Positions 4,712 through 62,889 of a stretch of 64,000 bases of DNA are shown here, piece by piece. This DNA comes from Odontocerum albicorne (lineage: Eukaryota; Arthropoda; Insecta; Trichoptera; Odontoceridae): the NCBI GenBank assembly GCA_949825065.1, contig OX463856.1, positions 20,084,632 to 20,148,631 of the forward strand, read 5' to 3'. The notes beneath the pieces are model-generated. The model was not told where the DNA came from and searched no databases. It worked only from the letters and a program-made list of their open reading frames with translations. A program made the position numbers and the translations under genes. Positions within the stretch are counted from its first letter, which is position 1. Every line of letters starts with the position of its first letter.

Positions 4712-5998
4712 TTAGGTCCTTACATATGAAATTGGCGTTTTGCCGTACTGGCAACTTTGATCTCAAATATCTTCTCTTTGGTTAGGAATTCCAAATTCAA
4801 ATTTATACAGCTATTTACTCAAGTATTTGTGTTTCGAAAATTATAATTCATTTGTTTTTTCCTCAATTGTTTTTTTTCTTTGCGTCACTCAGTTTACAAA
4901 ATGGAAAACTTGAAATATCGCGTTATTTACGAGTACGAGTTCCACCGTGGCACCAGTGCTGCAGAAACGGCTCGAAGGATTAATGATGTGTATGGCGACG
5001 GTGCCGCAAAAGAAAACACAGTGCGTTTTTGGTTCCAACGTTTTCGTTCTGGAAATTTCGACCTGCAGAACAAGTCCCGTGGACGGCTGGAGACCAAAGT
5101 TGATAATGAAGAATTGAAGGCTATTGTGGAAGCGGATCCATCGCAAACCACGTCCGAGTTAGCTGCAGGCTGCGGTGTTAGTGATAAAACTGTTTTAATC
5201 CACTTGAAGCAAATTGGGAAGGTAAAAAAGCTTGAAACGTGGGTACCTCACGAATTGAGTGAAGCAAATCAACAAACGCGCGTTGACTGCTGCGTTGCAT
5301 TACTCAACCGGCACAATAATGAAGGGATTTTGAATCGAATCATTACCTGTGATGAAAAGTGGATCCTGTATGATAATCGGAAGCGCTCATCGCAATGGCT
5401 GAACCCTGCCGAACCAGCCAAACCATGCCCCAAGCGAAAATTGACTCCAAAAAAGTTACTTGTGAGCGTTTGGTGGACTAGTGCTGGTGTCGTTCACTAC
5501 AGCTTTCTTAAATCTGGCCAGACGATTACGGCAGATGTCTATTGTCAGCAACTGCAAACCATGATGGAAAAGCTAGCTGCTAAACAACCGAGGCTGGTTA
5601 ATCGCTCTAGGCCACTGCTGCTTCATGATAACGCTAGACCACACACTGCACAACAGACGGCTACCAAATTAGAAGAGCTTCAATTGGAATGTCTAAGACA
5701 TCCACCGTACTCTCCGGACCTTGCCCCGACAGATTACTATTTTTTTCGAAATTTGGATAACTTCTTGCAAGGGAAAAAATTCAACTCCGATGGGGCAGTC
5801 CAAACCGACTTCAAAGATTTTATTGATTCCCGTCCGAATGGTTTTTTTAGTAAAGGGATCGATGAACTACCTATGAGATGGCAAAAGTGCATAGATAGCA
5901 ATGGTACATACTTTGATTAAATAAATATATTATATTAAAAAAAAATCAACTTTATGTTCCTCCCAAACAAAACGCCAATTTCATATGTAAGGACCTAA
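4712..5998 (+). mobile_element. Complete mariner element (cecropia-type)
   Basis: The 1287-bp element has 31-bp terminal inverted repeats that match exactly (TTAGGTCCTTACATATGAAA and the next 11 bases) and is flanked by TA target duplications at 4710-4711 and 5999-6000. It contains one uninterrupted transposase gene. A second, broken copy lies inverted at 42315-43600. Perfect ends plus an open gene suggest a young, possibly mobile copy. Confidence 0.95.
4901..5920 (+). CDS. Mariner transposase, full length
   Basis: A 339-residue transposase for cut-and-paste transposition at TA sites. An N-terminal pair of helix-turn-helix domains (about residues 1-110) should bind the terminal repeats, and the C-terminal domain is the RNase H-like catalytic core. 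Visible family signatures are WVPHEL at 114-119, TCDEKW with catalytic Asp151, LLHDNARPH with Asp243 and YSPDLAPTDY with Asp278. There are 34 residues between the last two Asp, the D,D34D spacing of mariner. The start is the ATG at 4901, giving MENLKY as in relatives; the frame opens slightly earlier without an ATG. No stop or frameshift is present. The sequence resembles the cecropia subfamily to which the transposase part of human SETMAR belongs. Whether it is active cannot be judged from sequence alone. Confidence 0.95.
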   Translation: MENLKYRVIYEYEFHRGTSAAETARRINDVYGDGAAKENTVRFWFQRFRSGNFDLQNKSRGRLETKVDNEELKAIVEADPSQTTSELAAGCGVSDKTVLIHLKQIGKVKKLETWVPHELSEANQQTRVDCCVALLNRHNNEGILNRIITCDEKWILYDNRKRSSQWLNPAEPAKPCPKRKLTPKKLLVSVWWTSAGVVHYSFLKSGQTITADVYCQQLQTMMEKLAAKQPRLVNRSRPLLLHDNARPHTAQQTATKLEELQLECLRHPPYSPDLAPTDYYFFRNLDNFLQGKKFNSDGAVQTDFKDFIDSRPNGFFSKGIDELPMRWQKCIDSNGTYFD

Positions 5999-24513: not shown

Positions 24514-24517
24514 GTTC

Positions 24518-24979
24518 TTTAGCGGTGTTGGTTCTAGTAGGACGAGATGATGATAGTAGTTGTTGGTAAATCAATAAAATACGTCAATTAGCAATGCGGA
24601 AAGAGAGAGTGAATGAATCAATGAATAATAATTAATAATTTATGATGCTTTATTTATCGGTAAGTGGGTATTTATACATTTCAGAATGGGCGCGGGAGTG
24701 CGCCCGCAATATATTTTTATCTCGCTTCTGTGCGTGCAGAAGTGGTCGATTGAAATATTGCAGACATCGCAAATAGTATTGTGGGTAGACAATTTGTTTG
24801 CGAAAACGGCGAGACAGCGTGATGCGTTCTCTTTCTACTGTGGAATGTATCGTAAATAGTATTTGTGGGTAAACAATTTCAATGTTTTGGTATGCGACCT
24901 TTGGACATATCCAAAGGTCGTTTCGTCGGTCGTTGACCGTGTGTGTTGACAATATTCAGCGAGGATCGTGGTTCCTACA
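24518..24979 (-). repeat. 3' LTR of the H2B-carrying element
   Basis: 462 bp. On the minus strand it starts TGTAGGAACCACGATC and ends ..ACCGCTAAA. It shares most of its length with 25825-26192 but has about 100 bp absent there. The frame at 24952-24650 is an LTR shadow. Confidence 0.85.
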
Positions 24980-25024
24980 TGGCTCCCTTCCTAGTGAAGC
25001 GTAAGGTGCGTACCTTCGCGAACG

Positions 25025-25513
25025 CTAGGTTCCGGTGCATCTGGCGCCTGGACTGGTTTTCCGTTTCCCCTTTGTCGAAATAGGTACGTGGATAACAGCA
25101 GCGAGCGGCGTTTTTTCCCGAATCTGCAGTGTCGTACAGATGGGTGATGCGGAAGCGGGGGGTAGGTTTGGTCGTGTCTCGCTAACTTCGGTTTGTCTGC
25201 GGTGCGTTGGTCGTCGATGCTTGGTTGTGTAGATCAAGTTGCAGATGGCGTCCAACGTGGAGGGTTGTTCTGCAGGTGCTTGATGATGGTGGAGTCTGCG
25301 ATGCTCGTGGCTGTAGCGTGGTTGTAACGTGGTTGTAGCGATGTTCATGGTTGTAGCGACGTTTGTGGTTGTATCGATGTTCGTGGTTGTAGCGATGCTT
25401 GTCTGCTCCAGCATCTTGTCGGTCAGTAGTTCGTCGAGGGAGGCAATCCGGGAAATCGTGTGGCTGATCGCCAGGACTGACCTCACATGAGCTGGCGTCA
25501 GGCTCGTCCACAT
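25025..25513 (-). pseudogene. Gag C-terminal remnant (CsRn1-like)
   Basis: The minus frame starts WTSLTPAHVRSVLAIS followed by ISRIASLDELLTDKMLEQ. This matches the end of the capsid region of CsRn1-type Gag, where a LW..LP..VQ..L motif precedes a LA.MADKI.E helix. A region rich in T/N/H repeats (RYNHEH-like in the alternative frame) follows. A third frame then shows a segment, FGKKRRSLLLSTYLFRQ, reminiscent of the Gag CCHC/Arg-rich end. The frames are offset from each other, so this is decayed or always non-coding. It sits directly after the H2B fragment in transcription order. Confidence 0.6.
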
Positions 25514-25755
25514 CAGATGTAGTGTTGTATCTGGGTGACGGCCCTGGTGTCCTTGCTGACGGCGTGCTTGGCTAACTCGCCGAGGAGTAGGATCCTGACG
25601 GTGGTCTGGATCTCTCTGCTGGTGATGATGCTCATCTTGTCGTAGTGGGCGAGGTGGGTGCCCTTGGCGGCGGTGCGCTCGAAGATGTCATTGACGAAGC
25701 TGTTCATGATGCTCATCGCGTTGCTGCTGATGCCGGTGTCGGGTTGCACATGTAC
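25513..25755 (-). pseudogene. Captured histone H2B fragment
   Basis: About 72 codons read as the core and C-terminal end of histone H2[20 protein letters not shown], then [39 protein letters not shown] and [11 protein letters not shown]. This corresponds to about residues 48-120 of a metazoan H2B, i.e. helices alpha-2, alpha-3 and alpha-C without the N-terminal tail and alpha-1. The frame has no stop or shift over the H2B part but carries roughly 17 replacements, some at normally invariant sites, such as Pro to Leu in the LLLPGELAK motif. Its G+C is much higher than its surroundings. It lacks its own ATG. The element's Gag N-terminal region is missing where the H2B piece sits. The H2B frame and the downstream Gag frame are not in register now. 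Confidence 0.85.
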
Positions 25756-25808
25756 GGTGTTTATCGAGTTGGCAATATTCGTTATAGTTGAAATCCGTGT
25801 TCACTTTT

Positions 25809-25823
25809 CGTTCAGGGTCACCA
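25809..25823 (-). promoter_or_regulatory. Primer-binding site, tRNA-Trp type
   Basis: The minus strand reads TGGTGACCCTGAACG one base after the 5' LTR end. The complement fits the acceptor end of a metazoan tRNA-Trp. The element at 44392 has TGGTGACCCCGAACG in the same place. Confidence 0.7.
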
Positions 25824-25824
25824 C

Positions 25825-26192
25825 TTTAGCGGTGTTGGTTCTAGTAGGACGAGATGATGATAGTAGTTAGTAGATAGGTGCGGGAGTGCGCCCGCAATAG
25901 TAGATATGTGCGGGAGTGCGCCCGCAATATATTTTTATCTCGCTTCTGTGCGTGCAGAAATGGTCGATTGAAATATTGCAGATATCGCAAATAGTATTGT
26001 GGGTAGACAATTTGTTTGCGAAAACGGCGAGACAGCGTGATGCGTTCTCTTTCTACTGTGGAATGTAAATAGTATTTGTGGGTTAACAATTTCAATGTTT
26101 TGGTATGCGACCTTTGGACATATCCAAAGGGCGTTTCGTCAGTCGTTGACCGTGTGTGTTGACAATATTCAGCGACGATCGTGGTTCCTACA
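25825..26192 (-). repeat. 5' LTR of the H2B-carrying element
   Basis: 368 bp, sharing its ends and most internal sequence with 24518-24979. It has a local duplication of the gtgcgggagtgcgcccgcaa block (about 25876-25928) and lacks the adjacent AT-rich part. The LTRs have therefore diverged since insertion. Confidence 0.85.
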
Positions 26193-26351
26193 GTTCCTTT
26201 GCTTTATTGTATTTTTTCGGCCATTCAGATTAATCTACATATCAATATTGTGATGTACTGTGATTTTCACTCAGTCTTAGATCGGTTCCCTTCAGTGGAG
26301 TCAAAATTAAGTTTAACTAAATTCGAAGTTTTTTTGTGATAGTACGCCAGT

Positions 26352-35169: not shown

Positions 35170-38026
35170 CAGTGTTCCCCAACCGGTGGTCCGCGGCCCG
35201 GTGCCGGGCCGCGGAGACTTTCCGCCGGGCCGCAAACAGTATTCAAGTCAAGTTTCAAGAAATTCGCCATGCAACAATATTAAATATAGGATTTTTTCGC
35301 TTGCACGTTGACTTGTATTTTTAGTAATTGTTAAATAAATATAATTGGTATGATAATGCGACACGATGGTCGCTGGTTTTCTCAGAATGGACAGTCATAA
35401 ATCTTCTCAGATACACTTAGGGAGAACGGAAATATTTGCTCTTGGATAGTTAACTCGGATGCAAAACCCTATTTAAATATATTTCCAAGAATTTCATAAT
35501 AAATAATTGTTTTCATTTTGGATAAATAAATACATATTTGGATAAATAAATACATTTTTAATAAAAAACATATTCATTTTATTGTTTTACAGAGGTTTGC
35601 AAAGGATATAATCCGTATCATATTTACCGCCTATTCATATATTTTTTTCGTTTCATCTGAAATTAATTTTTTGCGTCCGTTTCTAGTGGTTAGAAACATA
35701 TTTACTTTAAAATTATTTCAGTTGCATTTTTGAATTGAAAGGTAACACGCGCTTAATTATTCGTTCTTTCCGAAATGATTTTCTCAATTACAAGTTAAAA
35801 AAAATCTTCAATTTTTTAAATTCACTGCACCGATCGTTTGTTAATATTATTTTGTGTATTTCGGGAAACTACGTATTGTGCCATTTGAAACCCTGCAAAA
35901 TGGAAAAAAAGAAAGACAAACAGCCAAATATTTTTAACTTTTTTAAAAACAAGAACAGTAACCAGGAGAAGTGTAGTGAAGACACCGAAAATAATCCAAG
36001 TTCGAGTACATCAAGTATACAAGAAACAAGGAAAAATAAAAATAAATGTGTTGAGACTTCGGAATGTGCGACAGAAGCTAAAAAAAGGAAAGGGGACTAT
36101 GTTAGGCATTATGATAAAGGGTATTTAAAGTTTGGTTTTACTATAGCCCTTGAAAGTGAACTATGTCCACGGCCCCTGTGTGTAGTGTGTCACGCAATTC
36201 TATCAAATACGAAACCTTCCAAACTTGTTCGTCATTTGCATTTGAAGCATAGTGATCTCAAAGATAAGCCATTGGATTTTTTTAAAAGATTACACGACCA
36301 GTTGAAAAATTAAACAAGTGAAATGAAGAAGATAATAACAAGGGACAAAAAACTGCTTCAAGCGTCTTATTTAGTTGCTCTTCAAATATCTAAAACGAAA
36401 AAATCGTTCACTATCGGCGAGGAGTTAGTAAAGCCTTGCATCATAGATTGCGCTCGTGAGGTTTTGGGTCCTCAAGCCGCAAAAAAACTCGAGGCTATAC
36501 CACTTTCGGGAAACACTATCCAGAGAAGAATTCTAGACATGGCGATCGATATTGAAGAGCAGGTTGTCGAGGGAATAAAGAAATCACGATGTTTTGCAAT
36601 TCAACTCTACGAATCAACTGACGTGAGCAGCCATGCTATTCTACTTTGTTTCGTGAGGTATAGTAAAGCTGAAGATTTTAGGGAGGAACTTCTTCGCTGT
36701 CTTGACTTACCTGGATGGAATACAAGTTCGGAGATATTTGGTGTTCTTGACGAGTATTTCCAAGCGCACAGCTAAGAGTGGGGCAAATGCGTCGGAGTGT
36801 GTACAGACGGCGCTGCAAGCATGATTGGACATCTCTCAGGTGTAGTTGCAAGAATCAAGACTGTTGCCCATCCAGATATGTTGTCCACTCACTGTATAAT
36901 TCACCGAGAGCATCTAGCTGCAAAGAAGCTCTCTCCAGAGCTAAAACTGTTCAAGTTACTGTGCGAGAGTATGGACTCGCAACATCAACATCTACTCGTA
37001 CTTCTCCATGCAGAAGTGAGGTGGCTATCGAGAGGAAAGGTTCTTTCACGTCTCTTTGAATTAAGGGAAGAAGCAAAACATTTTATGAGATAGAGAAACT
37101 CCGCCCTACTAGAACATTTTTTGGACGAGGAATGGTTGAGTAAACTCGCATATATGGCGGACATATTTAGTCTACTTAATGACCTTTATCTTTCTCTGCA
37201 GGGGTTTTGTACAAATATTTTTAAATTGAGAAATAAGGTCGATGCATTTAAAAAAAAGCTGGTTTTTTGGGATTGTCGTGTACAAGTGGAGGATTTAGAA
37301 ATGTTTCCACTTTTGCAAGAATTTTTAATTGCTGCTGACGTCAACAGGAAAGGTGTTTTAAATGTAATAAGTCAACACTTGAAGGCGTTGGTACTAAAAT
37401 TTAATCATTATTATCCCGAAAATGAGGATCATCGTAAAGGAAATCTTTGGATTAATAATCCCTTCATGGAGGACATAATTTCATGTACTCTTACGAGTAG
37501 AGAAAAAGAAAAATTAATAGAGTTGACTTCGGATGTCATTCTGATATCCAGACACAAAACATTAACATTGCCTCAGTTTTGGATATCAGTGGAAGATGAA
37601 TATCCATCTTTAAGCTATAAATTTATTAATGTCATTTTCAACAACCTTTTCATGCGAAAAAGCATTTTCATCCATGTCCTCAATAAAATCGAAACAAAGG
37701 AATAGACTGGACGAGAATGCAGCACTTTGTCTATCAGAGACAGCACTGCAGCCAAGAATATCCAATATATTAGCAAAGATGCAACAGCAAGTTTCGCATT
37801 AGTTTGTTGTTGTTTAAAATTTTAATTGTATCAATGTTACAATTAAAATTGTTTAACTGTTATATGTATATTTGTTAATTATAGTTACATATGTCCATCT
37901 GCCACAATATAATAAGATTAAAAAAATATTAAATAAAAAAACCATTTTTATTTCAGTATTAGTAGTCCGCGAAAAAAAATTCCTTTTTTTACCGGTCCAC
38001 AGGTCTAAAAAGGTTGGGGAACACTG
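35170..38026 (+). mobile_element. Complete-ended hAT element with degraded transposase
   Basis: A 2857-bp element inserted in S1. The 15-bp terminal inverted repeats are perfect (CAGTGTTCCCCAACC at each end) and the 8-bp target duplication atctaaac (35162-35169 and 38027-38034) is perfect. The left end has a GC-rich subterminal block (ggtccgcggcccggtgccgg). It carries a BED-finger hAT transposase gene related to the ZBED5/FAM200-type host proteins. Confidence 0.95.
35900..37802 (+). pseudogene. hAT transposase, BED finger type, nonsense-interrupted
   Basis: From the ATG at 35900 the frame shows a lysine-rich N-terminus and a BED zinc finger (CVVC at residues 94-97, HLHLKH at 112-117). Then follow a transposase core with ESTDVSSHAILLC (first Asp region), CTDGAASMIGH (second Asp region), an HCIIHREHLA Cys/His motif and EVRWLSRGK, and a C-terminal dimerisation segment (FSSMSSIKSKQRNR). 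Three in-frame stops interrupt it (TAA 36311, TAA 36773, TAG 37091), all in one reading frame, plus a frameshift near 37640 before the last domain. Apart from these the frame is preserved, so inactivation looks recent. The shorter frames in between are its pieces. Confidence 0.9.
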
Positions 38027-41000
38027 ATCTAAACCACCTCTAAACACGTATGAACATTTGTTAGTAATACACGGAAATTTCACTCGAAAAACTGGCATTG
38101 ACGACCAAGTTTACGAATATATGTACAAAATCACCACAGAAATTTGATTTGTTCCACGTGTTTTCGTATTTTTAGTCCCAAACGTCTTATTTGGCTATAT
38201 TTCAATATTTTGGATCAATAAATTCAAGTTAAAAATTAATTTTATTATTTTTGACTTACAAAATACCAATTTTTTTAAGAAACATGCTAGAATTATAATA
38301 AATCAAGACAAAAGTGTAGTAGGAACACATTGACTTCAATTGTGATACAAAACTTATAAACCTTCTAAACATGTACGAGTATTTGATAGTAAACTACAAA
38401 AATTTCACACTTTTCACTCAAAAAACTGGCATTGACGACCAAGTTTTCGAATATATAAGCACAAAATCACCACAGAAAACCTATTTGTTTCACGTGTTTT
38501 CGTATTTTTCAACCCAAACGTCTTATTTGGCTAAATTTCAATATTTTGCATCAATAATTTCAAGTAAAAAAATAATATAATTATTTTTGACTTACAAAAT
38601 ACAAATTTTTCGAAGAAACATGCTAGAATTATATAATGAAACAAGACATAAGTGTAGTAGAAATGCATTGACTTCCATTGCGACATAAAAAATATAAACC
38701 TCCTAAACATGGATAAACATTTGTTAGTAATACACGGCAATTTCACACTTTTCACTCGAAAAACTGCCATTGACGACCACATTAACGAATATATGTAGAA
38801 AATCACCACAGAAGTTTTATTTGTTCCAAGTGTTTTCATATTTTTCGTACCAAGCGTCTTATTTGGCTAAATTTCAATATTTTGCATCAATAAATTCAAG
38901 TAAAAAATGAATTTTTTTATTTTGACTTGAAGAAACGTGCTAGAATTATAATGAATCAAGACAAAAGTGTTGTAGAAACGCATTGATTTCAATTGTGATA
39001 CAAAACCTATAAACCTCCTAAACATGTACGAGTATTTGTTAGTAAAATACAAAAACTTCACACTTTTCACTGGAAAAACTGCCATTGACGACCAAGTTTA
39101 CGGATATATGTAGAAAATTACCACGAAAATTTTATTTGTTCCATGTGTTTTCGTATTTTTCCAATTAACCGTCTTATCAAGCAAAATTTCAATATTTTGC
39201 ATCAAGAAATTCAAGTTAAAAATGAATTTTATTATGTTGGCTTACAAAATACCAATTTTTTGAAGAAACATGCTGGAATTATAATGAATCAAGACAAAAG
39301 TGTAGTAGAAACGTATTGATTTCAATTGTGATACAAAACTTATAAACCACCTAAACATGTACGAGTATTTGTTAGTAAAATACAAAAACTTCACACTTTT
39401 CACTCGAAAAACTGCCATTGACGACCAAGTTTACGAATATATGTGGAAAATCACCACGAAAATTTTATTTGTTCCACGTGTTTTCGTATTTTTCCAATTA
39501 ACCGTCTTATCAAGCAAAATTTCAATATTTTGCATCAAGAAATTCAAGTAAAAAATGAATTGTATTATTTTGACTTACAAAATACCAATTTTTTGAAGAA
39601 ACGCTGGAATTATAATGAATCAAGACAAAAGTGTAGTAGAAACGCATTGACTTCAATTGTGATACAAAACTTATAAACCTCCTAAACATGTTCGAGTATT
39701 TGTTAGTAAAATACAAAAACTTCACACTTTTCACTGGAAAAACTGCCATTGACGACCTAGCTATCGAATATATGTACAAAATCAACACGGAAAACTTATT
39801 TGTTTCACGTGTTTTCGTATTTTTCAACCCAAACGTCTTATTTAGCCAAATTTCAATATTTTGCATCAATAATTTCAAGTGAAAACTTATTATAATTATT
39901 TTTGACTTACAAAAAACAAATTTTTCGAAGAAACATGCTAGAATTATATAATGAAACAAGACATAAGTGTAGTAGAAACGCATTGACTTCCATTGTGACA
40001 TAAAACATATAAACCTCCTAAACATGGATGAACATTTGGTAGTAATACACGGCCATTTCACTTAATAAATCAAGACAAAATTGTAGTAGAAACGCATTGA
40101 CTTCAATTGTGATACAAAACTTATAAACCTCCTAAACATGTATGAGTATTTGTTAGTAAAATACAAAAACTTCACACTTTTCACTCGTAACACTGTCATT
40201 GACGACCAAGCTATCGAATATAAGTACAAAATCACCACAGAAAACTTATTTGTTCCACGTGTTTTCGTATTTTTCATCCCAAGCGTGTAATTTGGATAAA
40301 TTTCAATATTTAGCATCAATATTTTCAAATAAAAAAATAATTTTATTATTTTCACCAATTTTTCGAAAAAACATGCTAGAATTATTATGATTATGATATC
40401 AAGACATAGGTGTAGAAGAAACGCATTGATTTCAATTGTGATACAAAACTAATAAACCTCCTAAACATATTACGAGTATGTGTATTTCTTAGTAAAATAC
40501 AAAAACTTCACACTTTTCACTCTACAAACTTCCATTGACGACCAATCTATCGAATATATGTACAAAATTACCACAGTAAACTTATTTGTTCCAAGTGTTT
40601 TCATATTTTTCAACCCAAACGTCTTATTTGGCTAAATTCCATTATTATGCATCAATAAATTTAATTCAATAATGAATTTTATTATTTTTGACTTACATAC
40701 AAAATACCATTTTTTTTAAGAATTGTGCTAGAATTATAATGAATCAAGACAAAAGTGTAGTAGAAACGCATTGACTTCAATTGTGATATTCATATCACAA
40801 TTGAAGTCAATGCGTTTATAAACCACCCTTACATGTATGAGTATTTATTAGTAAAATACAAAAACTTCACACTTTTTACTCGTAAAACTGTCATTGACGA
40901 CCAAGCTATCGAATATAAGTACAAAATCACAACAGAAAACTTATTTGTTCCACATGTTTTCGTATTTTTCATCCCAAGCGTGTAATTTGGCTAAATTTCA

Positions 41001-42314
41001 ATATTTAGCATCAATATTTTCAAATAAAAAAATTATTTTATTATTTTTACCAATATTTGAAGAAACATGCTAGAATTATAATGAATCAAGACATAGGTGT
41101 AGAAGAAACGCATTGATTTCAATTGTGATACAAAACTAATAAACCTCCTAAACATATTACGAGTATGTGTATTTCTTAGTAAAATACAAAAACTTCACAC
41201 TTTTCACTCTACAAACTTCCATTGACGACCAATCTATCGAATATATGTACAAAATTACCACAGTAAACTTATTTGTGCCAAGTGTTTTCATATTTTTCAA
41301 CCCAAACGTCTTATTTGGCTAAATTTCAATATTTTGGATCAATAATTTCAATAAAAAAAATTATACAATTATTTTTGACTTACGCAATACAAATTTTTCG
41401 AAGAAATATGCTAGAATTATACAATCAAACAAGACACAGGTGAAGTAGAAACGGTTTGACTTCCATTGCGACATAAAACATATAAACCTCCTAAACATGG
41501 ATGAACATTTGTAAGTAATACACGGCAATTTCACAGTTTTTACTCGAAAAACTGCCATTGACGACCAAGTTTATGAATATATGTAGAAAATCACCACAGA
41601 AGTTTTATTTGTTCCATGTATTTTCGTATTTTTCGTCCCAAGCGTCTTATTTGGCTAAATTCTTTTATTATGCATCAATAAATTCAAGTAAAAAATGAAT
41701 TTTATTATTTTTGACTTACAAAATACCAATTTTTTTAAGAATTGTGCTAGAATTATAATGAATCAAGACAAAAGTGTAGTAGATACGCATTGACTTCAAT
41801 TGTGATACAAAGCTTATAAACCACCCTAACATGTACGAGTATTTGTTAGTAAAATACAAAAACTTCACACTTTTCACTCGAAAAACTGCCATTGACGACC
41901 AAGCTATCGAATATAAGTACAAAATCACCACAGAAATTTCATTTGTTCCACATGTTTTCGTATTTTTCATCCTAAGCGTCTTATTTGGCTGAATTTATAT
42001 ATTTAGCTCAATATTTTCAAATAATTTTAATAATTTTACCAATTTTTCGAAGAACCATGCTAGAATTAAAATAAATCAAGACATAGGTGTAGAAGAAACG
42101 CATTGACTTCAATTGTCATACAAAACTTATAAACCTCCTAAACATGTACGAGTATTTGTTAGTAAAATACAAAAACTTCACACTTTTCACTCGAATAACT
42201 GCCATTGACGACCAAGCTATCGAATATATGTACAAAATCACCACAGAAATTTTATTTGTTCCACGTGTTCTAGTATTTTTCAACCCAAACGTCTTATTTG
42301 GCAAAATGTTAATA
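38027..42314 (+). repeat. Satellite S1, plus orientation, segment 2 (includes left arm of palindrome A)
   Basis: Landmark cattgacgacc at 38096, 38430, 38768, 39083, 39416 and 39747, then a 450-bp step to 40197 marking a rearranged junction at 40061. Three monomer subtypes are visible. A has gtacgagtatttgttag. B has acttccattg(c/t)gacataaaa..atggatgaacattt. C has catcaatattttcaaataaa. B recurs about every four monomers (38.64, 39.96, 41.42 kb). Confidence 0.95.
40764..40817. repeat. 26-bp perfect fold-back inside S1
   Basis: The arms 40764-40789 and 40792-40817 are exact complements around a 2-base centre. The corresponding place in the opposite palindrome arm (about 47.57 kb) lacks the inverted piece. 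Confidence 0.95.
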
Positions 42315-43600
42315 TTAGGTCCTTACATATGAAATTAGCGTTTTGTTTGGGAGGAACATAAAGTTGATTTTTTTTTAATATAATATATTTATTTAATCAA
42401 AGTATGTACCATTGCTATCTATGCACTTTTGCCATCTCATAGGTAGTTCATCGATCCCTTTACTAAAAAAACCATTCGGACGGGAATCAATAAAATCTTT
42501 GAAGTCGGTTTGGACTGCCCCATCGGAGTTGAATTTTTTCCCTTGCAAGAAGTTATCCAAATTTCGAAAAAAATAGTAATCTGTCGGGGCAAGGTCCGGA
42601 GAGTACGGTGGATGTCTTAGACATTCCAATTGAAGCTCTTCTAATTTGGTAGCCGTCTGTTGTGCAGTGTGTGGTCTAGCGTTATCATGAAGCAGCAGTG
42701 GCCTAGAGCGATTAACCAGCCTCGGTTGTTTAGCAGCTAGCTTTTCCATCATAGTTTGCAGTCGCTGACAATAGACATCTGCCGTAATCGTCTGGCCAGA
42801 TTTAAGAAAGCTGTAGTGAACGACACCAGCACTAGTCCACCAAACGCTCACAAGTAACTTTTTTGGAGTCAATTTTCGCTTGGGGCATGGTTCTGCTGGT
42901 TCGGCAGGGTTCAGCTATTGCGATGAGCGCTTCCGATTATCATACAGGATCCACTTTTCATCACAGGTAATGATTCGATTCAAAATCCCTTCATTATTGT
43001 GCCGGTTGAGTAATGCAACGCAGCAGTCAACGCGCGTTTGTTGATTTGCTTCACTCAATTCGTGAGGTACCCACCTTTCAAGCTTTTTCACCTTCCCAAT
43101 TTGCTTCGAGTGGATTAAAACAGTTTTATCACTAACACCGCAGCCTGCAGCTAACTCGGACGTGGTTTGCGATGGATCCGCTTCCACAATAGCCTTCAAT
43201 TCTTCATTATCAACTTTGGTCTCCGGCCGTCCACGGGGCTTCTTCTGCAGGTCGAAATTTCCAGAACGAAAACGTTGAAACCAAAAACGCACTGTGTTTT
43301 CTTTTGCGGCACCGTCGCCATACACATCATTAATCCTTCGAGCCGTTTCTGCAGCACTGGTGCCACGGTGGAACTCGTACTCGTAAATAACGCGATATTT
43401 CAATTTTCCATTTTGTAAACTGAGTGACGCAAAGAAAAAAAACAATTGAGGAAAAAACAAATGAATTATAATTTTCGAAACACAAATACTTGAGTAAATA
43501 GCTGTATAAATTTGAATTTGATATTCCTAACCAAAGAGAAGATATTTGAGATCAAAGTTGCCAGTACGGCAAAACGCCAATTTCATATGTAAGGACCTAA
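42315..43600 (-). mobile_element. Mariner, second copy, inserted in S1
   Basis: 1286 bp with 31-bp terminal repeats (one mismatch on the left) and TA duplications at 42313-42314 and 43601-43602. It is very similar to the copy at 4712-5998. It lies in the left arm of palindrome A; the right arm has the uninterrupted target at about 46.06 kb. Confidence 0.95.
42393..43410 (-). pseudogene. Mariner transposase, inactivated
   Basis: Reads on the minus strand as the same protein as at 4901-5920, including WVPHEL, TCDEKW, LLHDNARPH and YSPDLAPTDY. One base is missing in the third codon region, so the natural ATG runs into a stop at once. A tryptophan codon after RSSQ has become TAG near 42912. All three catalytic Asp codons survive. 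The remaining differences from copy 1 are few, so the two copies are young relatives. Confidence 0.9.
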
Positions 43601-44391
43601 TATTTTGCATCAATAAATTCAATTAAAAATGAATTTTATTATTTTTGACTTACAAAATACCAATTTTTTTAAGAAACGTGCTAGAATTATAATGTATCAA
43701 GACAAAAGTGTAGTAGAAACGCATTGACTTTAATTGTGATACAAAACTTATGAACCTCCTAAACATATACGAGCATTTGTTATTAAAATTTTGTATATTT
43801 TTGAACTTCACACTTTTCACTCGAAAAACTGCCATTGACGACCAAGCTTTCGAATATATGTACAAAATCACCACAGAAATTTTATTTGTTCCACATGTTT
43901 ACGTATTTTTTAACCCAAACGTCTTATTTGGCTACATTTCAATATTTTGCATCAATATTTTCAAATAAAAAATAATTTTATTATTTTTACCAATTTTCGA
44001 AGAAACATGCTAGAATTATAATGAATCAAGACATAAGTGTAGTAGAAACGCATTGACTTCAATTGTGATACAAAACTTATAAACCTCCTAAACCTACGAG
44101 TATTTGTTAGTACAATACAAAAACTTCACACTTTTCACTCGAAAAACTGCCATTGACGACCAAGCTATCGAATATAAGTACAAAATCACCACAGAAAACT
44201 TATTTTTTTCACGTGTTTTCGTATTTTTCATCCTAAGCGTCTTATTTGGCTAAATTTCAATATTTAGCATAATGCATACATTAGCATGGTGATTTTGTAC
44301 CGAAGAAACATGCTAGAATTATAATGAATCAAGACATTGGTGTAGTAGAAACGCATTGACTTCAATTGTCATACAAAACTTATAAACCTCC
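43601..44391 (+). repeat. Satellite S1, plus orientation, segment 3
   Basis: Continues the array after the mariner. The stretch up to about 44105 pairs with 45.57-46.05 kb in the inverted arm. The last monomer (44105-44391) has no partner there. It ends at the target duplication ctcc (44388-44391) of the Gypsy LTR. Confidence 0.9.
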
Positions 44392-44786
44392 TGTGGCGGT
44401 CGCCCACTCGGCGTTCATACATACGGTCAATGACCGATGAAATGACCTTCGGATTCCTCGATAAATCTAAATAAACAAGTCCCAACCTCACACGCCGGCC
44501 ATTCAAGTCCGAAGTTCACCCGCCGGCCATTCAACCTATAGCCGACCGTATTCCATACTAGAGAGAGAACGCACAACGCTTGTCTCGCTAGTTCCGTATT
44601 TAAATGATACCTACGTACAACAATTAATCGTTTTGCATTCACAGAAACGAGACGTAGGCAAAAAGATATAAATACCTACGTTACTAATAAAATTCCACTC
44701 TCTTTCCGCATTGCGATCTAACGTGTTTTATTATTTATCAACAAATCATCATCACCATCTCTTCCAATAAGAACCATTCTGCTAAA
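44392..44786 (+). repeat. 5' LTR of a CsRn1-like Gypsy element
   Basis: Begins TGTGGCGGTCGCCCACTCGG and ends ..ACCATTCTGCTAAA, directly followed by a tRNA-Trp-type primer site (TGGTGACCCCGAACG at 44788-44802). It contains two direct copies of cgccggccattcaa. The unusual AAA end is the same as in the H2B-carrying element. Confidence 0.85.
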
Positions 44787-44852
44787 GTGGTGACCCCGAA
44801 CGCAAATTGAACGCAGATTTCGACTATAGCGAATATAGCCAACTCGAAAACG

Positions 44853-45262
44853 ATGTCAATACAAAACCAAGAACCCGCATCTGGAAACGCATCACCTCCA
44901 CGGCATCTCGCTGGTATCGCACTAGCGATGCAAATCACGGCATTCTGGCGCGACAAACCACGCCTATGGTTCATCACCTTCGAAGCCGCCACCCAGGACC
45001 TCCACCGCAGCCAAGCCCAGCTGGCTCAGATGGTCCTTGCCCAGCTTGACAAACAAGACATCGAGCAGATCGCCGATCTTCTGCACAACCCGAGCGCAAA
45101 CCAATACGAAGAAGTTAAAAAAAGACTCATCTCCGTCTACGAAGAAAGCGATGCGAGACAGCTCCAAAGACTGCTGTCAGAGATGGAGCTCGGCGACCAG
45201 CGCCCATCACAGCTGTTACGACGCATGCGGAACCACGCCCGCGAAATGACTCGATTCGAGGG
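44853..45262 (+). pseudogene. Gypsy Gag N-terminal part, truncated
   Basis: The ATG at 44853 opens a frame with the CsRn1-type Gag signature: FWRDKPRLWFITFEAAT, then a long helical stretch and YEEVKKRLISVYEESDA, RQLQRLLSEMELGDQRPSQL and LRRMRNHA. In the family this protein is the capsid precursor that packages the element's RNA. The homology stops at about residue 135, where the sequence switches into an inverted RT fragment (junction near 45255-45262). The open frame runs on to 45305 by chance. The leader before it matches the leader of the H2B-carrying element. Confidence 0.85.
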
Positions 45263-45568
45263 AATTCAAACATGCCGAAAGGTGTTATTATGGCAGTCTT
45301 CTTGATGTGTTTATCAAGAACTGGTAGCTGTTGGTAAGCTCGGTTGAGGTCGAGTGTGCTGAAGATTTTTTTTCCTGCGAGCTGGTATGTGAAATCTTTC
45401 ATGCGTGGTACGAGGTACCTGTCGGGCTTCGTGACGGAATTTAGTCGTCTGTAGTCGCCGCAGACTCGTAGTTTACCGTTCTTTTTGGGTACGACAACAA
45501 GTGGGCTTGCCCAAGGGCTCTTGCTGGGGCGGCATATACCTTGAAGCATCATCTCTATAAGCATCAAC
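45262..45568 (-). pseudogene. Gypsy reverse transcriptase, N-terminal fragment, inverted
   Basis: Minus-strand translation reads GICRPSKSPWASPLVVVPKK, then NGKLRVCGDYRRLNSVT, DRYLVPRMKDF, KKIFSTLDLNRAYQQLPV and TAIITPFGMFEF. These are the first RT blocks up to just before the catalytic YxDD region, which is missing here and found instead at 49.5 kb in plus orientation. It abuts Gag on one side and S1 satellite on the other, so both ends are rearrangement junctions. Confidence 0.9.
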
Positions 45569-48500
45569 AAATACTCGTACATGTTTAGGAGGTTTATAAG
45601 TTTTGTATCACAATTGAAGTCAATGCGTTTCTACTACACTTATGTATTGATTCATTATAATTCTAGTATGTTTCTTCGAAAATTGGTAAAAATAGTAAAA
45701 TTATTTTTTATTTGAAAATATTGATGCAAAATATTGAAATGTAGCCAAATAAGACGTTTGGGTTAAAAAATACGTAAACATGTGGAACAAATAAAATTTC
45801 TGTGGTGATTTTGTACATATATTCGATAGCTTGGTCGTCAATGGCAGTTTTTCGAGTGAAAAGTGTGAAGTTTTTGTATTTTACTAACAAATACTCGTAC
45901 ATGTTGGGGTGGTTTATAAGCTTTGTATCACAATTGAAGTCAATGCGTATCTACTACACTTTTGTCTTGATTCATTATAATTCTAGCACAATTCTTAAAA
46001 AAATTGGTATTTTGTAAGTCAAAAATAATAAAATTCATTTTTAATTGAATTTATTGATGCAAAATATTAACATTTTGCCAAATAAGACGTTTGGGTTGAA
46101 AAATACTAGAACACGTGGAACAAATAAAATTTCTGTGGTGATTTTGTACATATATTCGATAGCTTGGTCGTCAATGGCAGTTATTCGAGTGAAAAGTGTG
46201 AAGTTTTTGTATTTTACTAACAAATACTCGTACATGTTTAGGAGGTTTATAAGTTTTGTATGACAATTGAAGTCAATGCGTTTCTTCTACACCTATGACT
46301 TGATTTATTATAATTCTAGCATGGTTCTTCGAAAAATTGGTAAAATTATTAAAATTATTTTTTTATTTGAAAATATTGAAGCTAAATATATAAATTCAGC
46401 CAAATAAGACGTTTAGGATGAAAAATACGAAAACATGTGGAACAAATGAAATTTCTGTGGTGATTTTGTACTTATATTCTATAGCTTGGTCGTCAATGGC
46501 AGTTTTTCGAGTGAAAAGTGTGAAGTTTTTGTATTTTACTAACAAATACTCGTACATGTTGGGGTGGTTTATAAGCTTTGTATCACAATTGAAGTCAATG
46601 CGTATCTACTACACTTTTGTCTTGATTCATTATAATTCTAGCACAATTCTTAAAAAAATTGGTATTTTGTAAGTCAAAAATAATAAAATTCATTTTTTAC
46701 TTGAATTTATTGATGCATAATAATAGAATTTAGCCAAATAAGACGCTTGGGACGAAAAATACGAAAATACATGGAACAAATAAAACTTCTGTGGTGATTT
46801 TCTACATATATTCATAAACTTGGTCGTCAATGGTAGTTTTTCGAGTAAAAAGTGTGAAATTGCCGTGTATTACTTACAAATGTTCATCCATGTTTAGGAG
46901 GTTTATATGTTTTATGTCGCAATGGAAGTCAAACCGTTTCTACTTCACCTGTGTCTTGTTTGATTGTATAATTCTAGCATATTTCTTCGAAAAATTTGTA
47001 TTGCGTAAGTCAAAAATAATTGTAAAATTTTTTTAATTGAAATTATTGATGCAAAATATTGAAATTTCGCCAAATAAGACGTTTGGGTTGAAAAATATGA
47101 AAACACGTGGAAGAAATAAGTTTACTGTGGTAATTTTGTACATATATTCGATAGATTGGTCGTCAATGGAAGTTTGTAGAGTGAAAAGTGTGAAGTTTTT
47201 GTATTTTACTAAGAAATACACATACTCGTAATATGTTTAGGAGGTTTATTAGTTTTGTATCACAATTGAAATCAATGCGTTTCTTCTACACCTATGTCTT
47301 GATTCATTATAATTCTAGCATGTTTCTTCGAAAAATTGGTAAAAATAATAAAATAAATTTTTTATTTGAAAATATTGATGCTAAATATTGAAATTTAGCC
47401 AAATTACACGCTTGGGATGAAAAATACGAAAACATGTGGAACAAATAAGTTTTCTGTGGTGATTTTGTACATATATTCGATAGCTTGGTCGTCAATGACA
47501 GTTTTACGAGTAAAAAGTGTGAAGTTTTTGTATTTTACTAATAAATACTCATACATGTTAGGGTGGTTTATAAGCTTTGTATCACAATTGAAGTCAATGC
47601 GTTTCTACTACACTTTTGTCTTGATTCATTATAATTCTAGCACAATTCTTAAAAAAAATGGTATTTTGTAAGTCAAAAATAATAAAATTCATTTTTTACT
47701 TAAATTTATTGATGCATAATAATGGAATTTAGCCAAATAAGACATTTGGGTTGAAAAATATGAAAACACTTGGCACAAATAAGTTTACTGTGGTAATTTT
47801 GTACATATATTCGATAGATTGGTCGTCAATGGAAGTTTTTAGAGTGAAAAGTGTGAAGTTTTTGTATTTTACTAAGAAATACACATACTCGTAATATGTT
47901 TAGGAGGTTTATAAGTTTTGTATCACAATTGAAATCAATGCGTTTCTTCTACACCTATGTCTTGATTCATTATAATTTTAGCATGTTTCTTCGAAAAATT
48001 GGTAAAAATAAAAAAATTAATTTTTTATTTGAAAATATTGATGATAAATATTGAAATTTATCCAAATTACACGCTTGGGATGAAAAATACGAAAACACGT
48101 GGAACAAATAAGTTTTCTGTGGTGATTTTGTACTAATATTCGATAGCTTGGTCGTCAATGACAGAAAACTTGTAAAACTTGTAAAAACAAGTGAAAAGTG
48201 TGAAGTTTTTGTATTTTACTAACAAATACTCATACATGTTTAGGAGGTTTATAAGTTTTGTATCACAATTGAAGTCAATGCGTTTCAACTACACTTTTGT
48301 CTTGATTTATTAAGTGAAATGGCCGTGTATTACTACCAAATGTTTATCCATGTTTAGGAGGTTTATATGTTTTATGTCGCAATGGAAGTCAATGCGTTTC
48401 TACTACACCTATGTCTTGTTTGATTGTATAATTCTAGTATGTTTCTTCGAAAAATTTGTATTGCGGAAGTCAAAAATAATTATATTATTTTTTTACTTGA

Positions 48501-49030
48501 AATTATTGGTTCAAAATATTGAAATTTAGCCAAATAAGACGTTTGGGTTGAAAAATACGAAATTACGTGCAACAAATATGTTTTCTGTGGTGATTTTGTA
48601 CATATATTCGAAAACTTGGTCGTCAATGGCAGTTTTTCGAGTAAAAAGTGTCAAGTTTTTCTATTTTACTAACAAATACTCATACATGTTTAGGAGGTTT
48701 ATAAGTTTTGTAACACAAATGAACTCAATGCGTTTCTACTACTTTTTTGTCTTGATTCATTATAATTCTAGCATGTTTCTTCAAAAAATAGGTATTTTGT
48801 AAGTCAAAAATTATTAAATTCATTTTTTACTTGAATTTCTTGATGCAAAATATTGAAATTTTGCTAAATAAGACGTGTTAGTTGAAAAATACGAAAACAC
48901 GCGGAACAAATAAAATTTCTGTGGTGATTTTCTACATATATTCGTAAACTTAGTCGTCAATGGCAGTTTTTCGAGTGAAAAGTGTGAAGTTTTTGTATTT
49001 TACTAACAAATACTCGTACATGTTTAGGAG
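45569..49030 (-). repeat. Satellite S1, inverted orientation (right arm of palindrome A, left arm of palindrome B)
   Basis: All monomers here are reverse-complement to those before 44.4 kb. 45.57-48.35 kb pairs monomer by monomer with 44.1-40.04 kb, including shared private variants such as acatgtttacgtatttttta, a Gctcaatatt-type variant, and the ttaataaatcaagac junction (40061 and 48312). 48.31-49.03 kb pairs with 50.82-51.57 kb. Confidence 0.95.
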
Positions 49031-49457
49031 TTTAGCAGAATGGTTCTTATTGGAAAAGATGATGATGATGATTTGTTGATAAATAATAAAACACGTTAGA
49101 TCGCAATGCGGAAAGAGAGTGGAATTTTATTAGTAACGTAGGTATTTATATCTTTTTAGAATGTGTGCGAGAATGCGCTCGCGATATGCCTGTGTCTCGT
49201 TTCTGTGAATGCAAAACGATTAATTGTTGTATGTAGGTATCATTCAAATACGGAACTAGCGAGACAAGCGTGGTGCGTTCTCTCTCTCTCTAGTATGGAA
49301 TCGCATATTTTCTGTTGATACCTCGCAGTATATTTTTTTATTGGAGGTGGGTAGTGCGATTTTTTCGAACTTTAAATTTGGCCGATTTAGTAATGTTGGT
49401 ATGTCTGTGTCTGTTTGGTGAGCATCGGCAAGACTTTTGTAGTCCAATGTAGCGGCT
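49031..49457 (-). repeat. Inverted copy of Gypsy 3' pol end plus LTR (left arm of palindrome B)
   Basis: 49031-49300 is the LTR 3' part in reverse. 49301-49457 reads on the minus strand as the spacer after RNase H (DYKSLADAHQTDTDIPTLL). It is nearly identical to 50394-50820 and carries the same deletion junction (pol joined to mid-LTR), so it was copied after that deletion arose. Confidence 0.85.
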
Positions 49458-49479
49458 CATTCAATACCCTCGATTGAAA

Positions 49480-50550
49480 AACAATACCCTCGATTAAAAA
49501 ACGCAGGCCAGACTTTAAAACGGTTTATACACCAAGTACTAACCGGCCTGGACTTCGCGTTTCCATTTATTGATGACGTCATCATTGCATCAGGAAACGA
49601 AGTCCAGCATGAAGAGCACATCCAAAAGATCCTACAGCGCTTCAGCGAATATAGAATTACAATCAATCCCGCCAAATGTGCGCTTGGAAAGAGCAACGTG
49701 ATCTTTCTCGGATACAACGTTGACAAAGACGGAATTAAACCACCAGCCACGAAGATTAAAGCCATCGACGAATTCCCTAGGCAAACGAATGTCGAGTCAT
49801 TGCGCAGATTCATTATGGTTAACTATTACCGTGAATGCATTCCACAAGCCGTATACATTCAAGCGACGCTACATGCATATTTGCATAAAGCAAAAAAAAG
49901 AGATAAAACCGATATAAAGTGGACCGAGGAATCAACAACGGCATTCGAAAAATGCAAGCAATCGATACGCGACGCAGTTCTACTGAACCACCCTCAGAAC
50001 GACGCCGCACTATCCTTTCTAACCGACGCATCGGACACAAGGATGGGGGCCGTCCTACAACAAAGAGTGAACAATATTTGGCGACCACTCGGATATTTCT
50101 CAAAGAAATTCAGCGCAGCTCAAAATAACTACAGCACATACGACAGAGAGCTAACGGCTATATACATGGCAGTGAAGTATTTCCGGAACTTTCACGAGGG
50201 AATACAAATGATAATCTACACCGATCACAAACCACTCGTTTACGCATTCGCAAAAAAAAACATCCGACAGCGAATCAGCCCGAAGAACTCGCTACATAAC
50301 ATTCATAAGCGAATTCACTACTGATATTCGGCACATCGACGAAGCAGAGAATATTCCCGCAGATACTCTGTCTCGAATCGAGACGCTCGTAGGAGCCGCT
50401 ACATTGGACTACGAAAGTCTCGCCGATGCTCACCAAACAGACACAGACATACCAACATTACTAAATCGGCCAAATTTAAAGTTCGAAAAAATCGCACTAC
50501 CCACCTCCAATAAAAAAATATACTGCGAGGTATCAACAGAAAATATGCGA
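49480..50550 (+). pseudogene. Gypsy RT C-terminal part and RNase H
   Basis: The plus strand reads KNAGQTLKRFIHQVLTGLDF followed by the catalytic FIDD box (form of YxDD), a CALGKSNVIFLGYNV block, then RNase H with LTDASDTRMGAVLQQ (Asp), NNYSTYDRELTAIYMAVKYF (Glu) and MIIYTDHKPLVYAF (Asp). A frameshift near 50300 moves the remainder (FTTDIRHIDEAENIPADTLS, DYESLADAHQ) to another frame. Integrase is missing: after KKIYCEVSTENMRF the sequence jumps into the LTR (about 50551). It is the complement in content to the RT N-terminal piece at 45262-45568. Confidence 0.9.
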
Positions 50551-50820
50551 TTCCATACTAGAGAGAGAGAGAACGCACCACGCTTGTCTCGCTAGTTCCG
50601 TATTTGAATGATACCTACATACAACAATTAATCGTTTTGCATTCACAGAAACGAGACACAGGCATATCGCGAGCGTATTCTCGCACACATTCTAAAAAGA
50701 TATAAATACCTACGTTACTAATAAAATTCCACTCTCTTTCCGCATTGCGATCTAACGTGTTTTATTATTTATCAACAAATCATCATCATCATCTTTTCCA
50801 ATACGAACCATTCTGCTAAA
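50551..50820 (+). repeat. 3' LTR of the Gypsy element, 5'-truncated
   Basis: Matches the last ~270 bp of the LTR at 44392-44786 and ends ..TTCTGCTAAA. The next four bases, ctcc (50821-50824), equal the four bases before the 5' LTR (44388-44391). Confidence 0.85.
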
Positions 50821-52117
50821 CTCCTAAACATGTACGAGTATTTGTTAGTAAAATACAAAAACTTCACACTTTTCACTCGAAAAACTGCCATTGACGACTA
50901 AGTTTACGAATATATGTAGAAAATCACCACAGAAATTTTATTTGTTCCGCATGTTTTCGTATTTTTCAACTTACACGTCTTATTTAGCAAAATTTCAATA
51001 TTTTACATCAAGAAATTCAAGTAAAAAATGAATTTAATAATTTTTGACTTACAAAATACCTATTTTTTGAAGAAACATGCTAGAATTATAATGAATCAAG
51101 ACAAAAAAGTAGTAGAAACGCATTGAGTTCATTTGTGTTACAAAACTTATAAACCTCCTAAACATGTATGAGTATTTGTTAGTAAAATAGAAAAACTTGA
51201 CACTTTTTACTCGAAAAACTGCCATTGACGACCAAGTTTTCGAATATATGTACAAAATCACCACAGAAAACATATTTGTTGCACGTAATTTCGTATTTTT
51301 CAACCCAAACGTCTTATTTGGCTAAATTTCAATATTTTGAACCAATAATTTCAAGTAAAAAAATAATATAATTATTTTTGACTTCCGCAATACAAATTTT
51401 TCGAAGAAACATACTAGAATTATACAATCAAACAAGACATAGGTGTAGTAGAAACGCATTGACTTCTTCCATTGCGACATAAAACATATAAACCTCCTAA
51501 ACATGGATGAACATGGATGAATATGGTTAGTAATACACGGCCATTTCACACTTTTCACTAAAAAAACTGCCATTGACGACCAAGTTTACGAATATGTGTA
51601 GAAAATCCCCACAGTAGTTTTATTAGTTCCACGTGTTTTGGTATTTTTCGTCCCAAGCGTCTTATTTCGCTAAATTTTAATATTTTGCATCAATAAACTC
51701 AGGTAAAAAATAAATTTTATTTTTTTTGACTTACAAAATACCAATTTTTTTAAGAAACGTGAAATATAATGAATCAAGACAAAAGTTTACTAGAAACGCA
51801 TTGACTTCAATTGTGATACAAAACTTATAAACCTCCCTGAACATGTACGATTATTTGTTAGTAAAATACAAAAACTTCACCCTTTTCCCTCGAAAAACTG
51901 CCATTGACGACCAATCTATCGAATATAAGTACACAATCACCACAGAAAACTTATTTGTTCCACGTGTTTTCGTATTTTTCATCCTAAGCGTCTTTTTTGG
52001 CTTAATTTCAATATTTAGCATAAATATTGTCAAATAAAAAATAAGTTTTATTATTTTTACCAATTTTTCGAAGAAACATGCTAGAATTATAATGAATCAA
52101 GACATTGGTGTAGTAGA
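50821..52117 (+). repeat. Satellite S1, plus orientation, segment 4 (right arm of palindrome B)
   Basis: 50821-51573 mirrors 48313-49030; beyond that it is ordinary S1. A small atggatgaac duplication occurs at about 51505. It ends in two direct copies of aaacgtaattatatta (52118 and 52142) where the array flips. Confidence 0.9.
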
Positions 52118-52149
52118 AACGTAATTATATTAATTATAACGAAACGTAA

Positions 52150-53100
52150 TTATATTAGAAATAAGACGTTTAGGTTGAAAAATACGAAAATACGTGGAAC
52201 AAATAAGTTTTCTGTGGTGATTTTATACATATATTCGATAGCTTGGTCGTCAATGGCAGTTTTAAGAGTGAAAAGTGTGAAGTTTTTGTATTTTACTAAC
52301 AGATGCTCGTACATGTTTAGGAGGTTTTTAAGTTTTGTATCACAATTGAAGTCAATGCGTTTCTACTAAACTTTGGTCTTGATACATTTATAATTCTAGC
52401 ACGTTTCTTAAAAACATGGTATTTTGTAAGTCAAAAATAATAAAATAAATTTTTTATTGAAAATTATTGGTGGAAAATATTGAAATTGAGCAAAATAAGA
52501 CGTTTTGGACGAAACACACGGAAACACGTGGAACAAACCAAATTTCTATGGTGATTTTGTACATATATTCGATAGCTTGGTCGTCAATGGCAGTTTTTCG
52601 AGTGAAAAGTGTGAAGTTTTTGTATTTTACTAACAAATACTCGTACATGTTTCAGAGGTTTATAAGCTTTGTATCACAATTGAAGTCAATGCGTTTCTAC
52701 TACACTTATGTCTTGATTCATTTTAATTCTAGCATGTTTCTTCGAAAATTGGTAAAAATATTAAATTATTTTTTATTTGAAAATATTGATGCAAAATATT
52801 GAAATGTAGCCAAAGAAGACGCTTGGGATGAAAAATACGAGAACACGTGGAACAAATAAGTTTTCTGTGGTGATTTTCTACTTATATTCGATAGCTTGGT
52901 CGACAATGGCAGTTTTACGAGTGAAAAGGGTGAAGTTTTTGTATTTTACTAACAAATACTCGTACATGTTCAGGAGGTTTATAAGTTTTGTATCACAATT
53001 GAAGTCAATGCGTTTCTACTACACTTTTGTCTTGATTCATTATAATTCAAGTTTTTAAAAAAAATTGGTATTTTGTAAGTCAAAAAAAATAAATTTTATT
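52150..53100 (-). repeat. Satellite S1, inverted segment
   Basis: About three monomers in reverse orientation between flips at about 52.13 and 53.10 kb. Confidence 0.9.
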
Positions 53101-53446
53101 TATCACCACAGAAAACTTATTTGTTGCACGTGTTTTTGTATTTTTCAACCCAAACGTCTTATTTGGCTAAATTTCAATATTTTGAATCAATAATTTCAAG
53201 TAAAAAAATAATATAATTATTTTTGACTTACAAAATACGAAGTTTTATTTGTTCTACGTGTTTTCGTCCCAAGCGTCTTTTTTGGCTAAATTTCAATATT
53301 TTGCATCAATAAATCCAAGTAAAAAATGAATTTTATTATTTTTGACTTACAAAATACCAATTTTTTTAAGAAACGTGCTAGAATTATAATGTACCAAGAC
53401 AAAAGTGTAGTAGAAATGCATTGACTTCAATTGTGATACAAAACTT
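53101..53446 (+). repeat. Satellite S1, plus orientation, segment 5
   Basis: Roughly one B/A monomer pair with internal deletion, ending at the target duplication actt of the solo LTR. Confidence 0.9.
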
Positions 53447-54690: not shown

Positions 54691-54694
54691 ACTT

Positions 54695-57050: not shown

Positions 57051-57308
57051 TTAAAACGTTTCAACCTTCCTAATATACTGCATATTTTGATATTTTTTTA
57101 AATATATACGAGTATTTCAGCTTAAACAAATGATAGTGAAATACTTCATATGTGACTTTTTGTCGCTTTTTCATATTCATTTTCTCTATTTCAGACTTTC
57201 AAACTATTTACGTGTATTTCCATAAAAGTAACTTTTTTAAAAAATCATGATCACGGCGTTATTTTCTTTTGTTTTATTGTTATTTCTATGTAGAAATACA
57301 ATACACCT
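57051..57308 (+). repeat. Array-end block shared with 30.64-30.83 kb
   Basis: gtgactttttgtcgcttttt..tttcagactttcaaacta..tctatgtagaaatacaata matches the block that ends S2 block 1 (gacatttttggcgctttttc..tttcagaccatcaaacta..tctatatagacatacaata). Confidence 0.65.
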
Positions 57309-62880: not shown

Positions 62881-62889
62881 CAACCATTG

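Follow-up and report, generated by a model that had tools for sequence, protein, structure and literature searches.

A dispersed family of short LTR retrotransposons in the caddisfly Odontocerum albicorne carries a fragment of histone H2B at the position of the Gag N-terminus. One copy lies in the 64,000-nucleotide stretch of DNA analysed here (contig OX463856.1, 20,084,632 to 20,148,631; the window), and more than 100 copies are spread over the genome. The family is very probably a pol-less derivative of a CsRn1-type Ty3/Gypsy element that captured H2B once, was replicated in trans and exchanged modules with its relatives while the captured piece drifted as a passenger. Capture of genes by LTR elements is mostly reported for genes in single copy; here a fragment of an extremely conserved protein has become multi-copy. 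The untouched host H2B genes serve as a reference, against which the copies record as a time series how a stolen gene decays within a replicating parasite, host-like in old insertions and drifted in young ones.

The window copy is a 1675-bp LTR element on the minus strand (24518-26192) with both ends exact. Its LTRs had been proposed to be flanked by a GTTC target duplication, and these four bases are indeed read at 24514-24517 and again at 26193-26196. The order on the minus strand is 5′ LTR, primer site with leader, H2B, Gag remnant, polypurine tract and 3′ LTR. The 3′ LTR (24518-24979, minus strand, 462 bp) bears TATAAATA and AATAAA stretches and is adjoined by the polypurine tract AGGAAGGGAGCCA (24980-24992, minus strand). 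The 5′ (right) LTR (25825-26192, minus strand, 368 bp) contains a 30-bp tandem duplication and an internal deletion of about 100 bases, and has lost the TATAAATA and AATAAA stretch, so the window copy is probably silent nowadays. An alignment of 333 bases between the two LTRs shows 6 substitutions. A length of 1675 bp leaves no space for pol, and none was seen by eye in the three sense frames of the element. A tRNA search across the whole window found none, and viral contigs searched with the LTR/primer-site string gave 0 matches.

The H2B fragment (25534-25752, minus strand) is an open frame of 72-73 codons covering host residues 47 to 119 approximately, in agreement with the roughly 72 stop-free codons reported earlier. 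A 78-amino-acid frame (25516-25749, minus strand) has 72 residues that match H2B. It aligns with a tandem H2B construct at 2.4e-60 and with single H2B chains from 2.4e-30, far beyond chance, and with the Pfam Histone family at 8.4e-8. Compared with the host gene L039 the window copy has about 7 synonymous and 16 nonsynonymous changes in 72 codons. No protein above 77% identity occurs among the 120 listed of 5531 database matches to the H2B part, so these 120 include no copy of the element. Host H2B loci consist of one uninterrupted frame each, except L047. This locus (G000:C20:42914497-42914871) is a full-length but damaged host H2B with an internal stop and 22 differences in 216 bases, on a contig other than the remaining host H2B loci.

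The boundaries of the fragment needed partial revision. Its start, put at about 25755 in the original prediction, lies near that position, at about 25749-25752. The junction with Gag had been placed at 25513, which is merely where the H2B frame reaches its stop codon, 20 bases into Gag. The Gag profile described below puts it at about 25534 (AVT|), with the Gag residues PDTTLHLMW from there on. H2B is taken to end here, one base out of frame with Gag, because the next six codons are not H2B and the neighbouring frame reads PDTTLHLMW. The overlap of sequence at this junction is about 2 bases (CC), and the left junction is too blurred to place.

The Gag C-terminal remnant (25028-25534, minus strand) has a degenerate zinc-knuckle part and is without pol. 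Its identity, suspected at the outset, is supported by a profile of 110 relatives of the Gag at 44.8 kb (from 206 candidates), which matches frame 0 at 3.2e-16 over profile positions 137-251 and spans about 25543-25172 of the window. A direct protein search with the remnant yielded no match at E up to 1 among its 85 candidates. Since the profile matches only from position 137 on, H2B, as judged from this alignment, replaces Gag residues 1 to about 138. What it replaced can be read from an H2B-free relative in the same window, the fragment at 44.8 kb (44751-45305, plus strand), in which a similar leader is followed by a DUF7041 Gag N-terminus. The proposed match between the two leaders is real, at 82% over 101 bases; the leader of the window copy (25750-25824, minus strand) is without three bases for the Gag start codon. 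Twenty-four of the Gag relatives come from named organisms, of which 22 are Lepidoptera and 2 are ticks. An 18-bp tandem repeat inside the remnant (25289-25400) seems to vary in length among copies.

The primer-binding site begins with TGGTGACCC (25823-25809, minus strand) and reads TGGTGACCCCGA in the 44.8-kb relative. Both agree with the predicted tRNA-Trp type. A tRNA-Trp primer site is a feature of the CsRn1 clade of Ty3/Gypsy (PMC2582038). The Gag zinc motif of that clade, CX2HX9CX3C, can be made out by eye in relatives of the Gag, for instance P0121 (CYYHRRFKEQARRCTSPC), and is degenerate in the window copy. The H2B element resembles this clade in its primer site, its 4-bp target duplication and the CHCC-type Gag of its relatives, and differs from it in the absence of pol and in having H2B in place of the Gag N-terminus (PMC2582038). 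The original assignment of H2B to the Gag position of a CsRn1-type element stands, with the tRNA-Trp primer site and the 4-bp duplication both present.

A multi-copy family had been suspected, and a genome-wide search for the same junction had been suggested as the check. When the genome (1.29 Gb) was searched with the DNA of the junction region, 413 candidates were obtained and the best 40 scored. All 40, including the window copy, match over at least 260 of 261 bases at 93-100% and carry the H2B/Gag junction. A search with the H2B protein gave 409 candidates, of which 150 were scored; these comprise 9 host H2B loci and 141 other places, the unfetched ones among the latter being taken as copies from match range and open-frame pattern alone. 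The analysed set consists of 126 copies in 124 loci, 40 from the DNA search (the best 40 of 413) and 86 from the protein search, with L059 omitted as a duplicate of L010. All copies were sought with H2B, so its presence in them is by construction and H2B-less copies lie outside the count; the accompanying leader, junction and Gag remnant are not by construction. Long flanks are available for 66 copies. A repeat pair was found in 50 of them (doubtful as LTRs in L005 and L026), and 24 of these 50 have an exact 4-bp duplication under a rule that tolerates small end shifts (doubtful in L060 and L031). About twenty copies have both an LTR pair and a 4-bp duplication of their own.

Some copies have unusual arrangements. 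L009 and L020 each consist of two element bodies in tandem, apparently with the middle LTR in common. L025 and L026 (G000:C31, about 7.4 kb apart) have identical H2B and leader readings and may be a local duplication. Some copies, such as these two and those on small contigs, may be segmental or haplotype duplicates.

The captured H2B drifts with time; neither this age gradient nor the start codon of some copies had been foreseen. Insertion age was taken as the divergence between the two LTRs of a copy and drift as the distance of its H2B from the nearest of three host genes. The two are negatively correlated (Spearman -0.61, n=42, p=2e-5, a p-value that is too small because the copies are related); without the outlier L048 the coefficient is -0.69 (n=41). 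Median LTR divergence falls from 2.7% at 0-15 H2B differences (12 copies) to 1.9% at 16-22 (9), 1.5% at 23-26 (16) and 0.45% at 27 or more (5). The test required at least 235 aligned bases (250 in an earlier round), excluded every unpaired copy as well as four pairs that were tandem or doubtful, and used the best aligned LTR piece alone for L069-L074. As host-like H2B sits in the older insertions, the changes point to substitution within the replicating lineage and not in dead copies, which places the capture long before most present insertions. Across 60 copies the nonsynonymous differences from the host gene range from 0 to about 18. The copy with 0 is L048 (G000:C12:16553107-16553343), which runs against the age trend; it is young (LTR divergence 0.8%) and its H2B encodes the host residues exactly, with synonymous differences only. 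It could stem from a second contact with H2B RNA or from a slow lineage.

Comparison of the H2B substitutions with the host, also suggested at the outset, gave a divided answer in which private and high-frequency changes are near neutral and those of intermediate frequency hint at weak constraint. Private changes number 23 synonymous, 71 nonsynonymous and 3 stops, with 2.2 stops expected; their fit to the neutral expectation is no independent test, because the expectation was built from them. Changes found in at least 5 copies (12 synonymous, 34 nonsynonymous) are at the neutral expectation. Those found in 2-4 copies (29 synonymous, 34 nonsynonymous) include fewer nonsynonymous changes than expected, with an omega of about 0.42 (p=0.001), for which recurrent third-position changes or weak constraint could be the cause. 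In the first 40 copies pN/pS is 0.53 for H2B versus 0.91 for Gag, but the H2B piece read in another frame gives 0.44 and the ratio is therefore unspecific to the true frame. The 0.53 versus 0.91 and the 2-4-copy class together hint at weak constraint. The age gradient and most substitution classes support passenger drift in the replicating lineage, and H2B appears to be mostly a passenger that changes near the neutral rate.

A different reading has the H2B piece useful to the element, either as a short protein begun by the Gag start or through selection on the H2B frame for RNA stability, packaging or chromatin targeting. It would account for a frame that is open in 123 of 126 copies (3 have an internal stop) and for lengths of 216 bases in 115 copies, 210 in 8 and 213, 207 and 204 in one each, all length changes being multiples of three. 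It would also suit the in-frame Gag start of 37 copies, five of which have measured LTRs and are young, and the low omega of the 2-4-copy class. The synonymous and nonsynonymous counts in the 37 start-codon copies (22:32; 58:130 in the 89 others) lean the same way. Against this, the protein search that supplied 86 of the 126 copies favours open frames, and young copies had little time to acquire stops, as the private changes with their 3 stops against 2.2 expected illustrate. The changes shared by at least 5 copies look neutral, the positions that changed are for the most part almost invariant across 120 listed H2B proteins, and the frame terminates at a stop just past H2B. Usefulness of the piece to the element is on this evidence unlikely.

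A former chimeric nucleic-acid-binding Gag had been envisaged as well, together with the present loss of frame between its two parts. The loss of frame is confirmed, since the frames of H2B and the Gag remnant are offset by one base in all of 40 copies, and for this reason a fused Gag is unsupported. In 123 of 126 copies the H2B frame runs into a stop no more than 8 codons past the end of H2B, and L048, the most host-like copy, is among them. In 37 of 126 copies the four codons ahead of H2B read M(S/P/A)KQ, which puts a Gag start in the H2B frame; the other 89 lack this start. The H2B segment presumably also lacks helix alpha-1 of the histone fold.

The start region of the M(S/P/A)KQ copies aligns with the Gag start of the 44.8-kb element (mostly ATGTCAAAACAA versus ATGTCAATACAA), and five other aligned copies are without three bases there. 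The start codon is taken as a gain through leader exchange because the more host-like copies lack it; exchange with relatives would thus have given one subfamily a Gag start codon that is in the H2B frame. In the five start-codon copies with measured LTRs divergence is 0-0.8%. Five copies without the codon (L032, L033, L034, L048 and L072) are also below 1%, and the codon therefore marks part of the young copies, not all. On an H2B tree of low resolution its state changes 8 times, which is compatible with repeated exchange as well as with insufficient resolution of the tree. The subfamily has an open frame of about 80 codons. That the Gag start drives a predicted protein of about 80 residues, a few from Gag followed by an H2B core without helix alpha-1, which helps the parasite by, for example, contacting chromatin or stabilising RNA, is quite doubtful. 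With this family one can test whether recombination, by adding a start codon, rescues a captured frame.

For the capture itself, the proposed switch of template to an H2B transcript is the most probable route. Once during reverse transcription, synthesis would have left the element RNA at about Gag codon 138, continued on a host H2B mRNA and returned to the element at its leader, leaving H2B codons 47 to 119 approximately in place of the Gag N-terminus. The chimeric RNA, still with LTRs, primer site, leader and polypurine tract, would then have been copied by Gag-Pol supplied from elsewhere. Mobilisation in trans is suggested by the absence of pol together with the presence of proper insertions. 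A LINE-type processed pseudogene was considered and rejected, as H2B directly adjoins both leader and Gag, in the window copy as in 40 aligned copies, and has neither a poly(A) tail nor a target duplication of its own.

The H2B piece might instead have been patched into one old copy at the DNA level, through repair of a break or through ectopic conversion with a histone gene, the patched copy then becoming the master. H2B genes are intronless and hence offer no splice evidence for an RNA step, and the short junction overlap suits both routes. Yet the piece is in sense orientation between the leader and Gag codon 138 or so, and template switching is the route described for LTR elements (PMC5408686, PMC9674220), which makes patching improbable. 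Untranscribed H2B flanking DNA was not seen in the copies inspected. The history after capture is the same for the DNA-level and RNA-level routes.

A single capture is likely, and the reason is the shared junction and not the tree. The right junction is identical in 40 of 40 copies and, by eye, in the 126 copies with the exception of four. The eight codons after H2B likewise read, by eye, as those of the window copy with at most a few changes in every copy except L083, L092, L098 and L103. Placing all copies in one clade is not rejected (p-AU 0.57), a free quick tree does not join all of them, and when a tree is rooted at L046, the smallest group with all copies also takes in three host genes.

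Recombination with relatives, swapping LTRs, leader and Gag pieces, is supported by several comparisons. Copies with 98-99% identical H2B have LTRs with identities down to 78-80%, and across 22 copies the LTRs diverge by 18%, the leaders by 11% and H2B by 4%. LTR exchange accounts for the 4% versus 18% only where such exchange is common. A further indication is L033 (G000:C10:14282963-14283223 and flanks), which has a far fuller Gag C-terminus after H2B (1.9e-39 to the Gag profile).

Antisense transcription of copies could, by analogy with a moth, produce small RNAs against H2B mRNA. In Plutella, W-linked gene fragments joined to gag pieces produce silencing RNAs for a sex gene (PMC9674220), and 91 of 126 copies of the H2B family share an exact run of at least 28 bases with a host H2B gene. 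The H2B part, however, drifts off the host instead of staying matched, and such a role is very unlikely. The family also allows a test of whether repeats that match H2B are a source of small RNAs against a histone. The prospect against which the original prediction had cautioned, a single-copy local accident in which an H2B pseudogene with its own ends was later inserted into one dead element, is compatible with the window copy taken alone and with the promoter-like stretch missing from its 5′ LTR, but has practically no probability left and is rejected, as all 40 scored DNA matches share the junction and most lie at other chromosomal places with different flanking duplications.

Chimeras formed by LTR-mediated retroposition and template switching were reportedly described by Tan et al. 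in 2016. The H2B element likewise has host coding sequence between retroelement parts, LTRs and a target duplication. Such chimeras have, as here, host mRNA sequence within LTR-element cDNA and retrotransposon pieces on both sides, and they show a short overlap at the switch point (PMC5408686, PMC9674220); the cases described there are gene retrocopies, whereas the H2B chimera is a replicating family of more than 100 copies. Pxyfem of Plutella xylostella is also a multi-copy host cDNA fragment beside gag fragments of LTR retrotransposons, but with 11 copies in two tandem clusters, while the H2B element is dispersed and often complete from LTR to LTR (PMC9674220). Maize Bs1 is an LTR element with host coding fragments; the H2B element differs in coming from an insect and in having, at the Gag position, a histone fragment whose frame is not that of the Gag part after it (PMC13317346). 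TRIM elements are defined as shorter than 1000 bp with terminal repeats of 100-250 bp (PMC6934838). They are short non-autonomous LTR elements for which host-gene transduction has been reported, as in the H2B case, but the H2B element is longer, has longer LTRs and keeps a recognisable Gag remnant (PMC6934838). With 1675 bp and LTRs of 368 and 462 bp, it is not a TRIM. No LTR family carrying H2B was found in the open-licence literature, judged by title and the start of the abstract.

The window contains further repeats. A large repeat field in both orientations (38030-57070) surrounds the 44.8-kb Gypsy fragment and another at 49.4 kb. Two mariner-like copies (4847-5920, plus strand; 42393-43526, minus strand) are 98.8% identical over 1.3 kb, the first with a frame of 357 amino acids and the second split by a stop. 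Frames at 35711-37705 resemble, by eye, a decayed DNA transposase with a zinc-finger start, and a long simple repeat (62658-63974) gives Ser-Pro and Asp-Gly frames on opposite strands.
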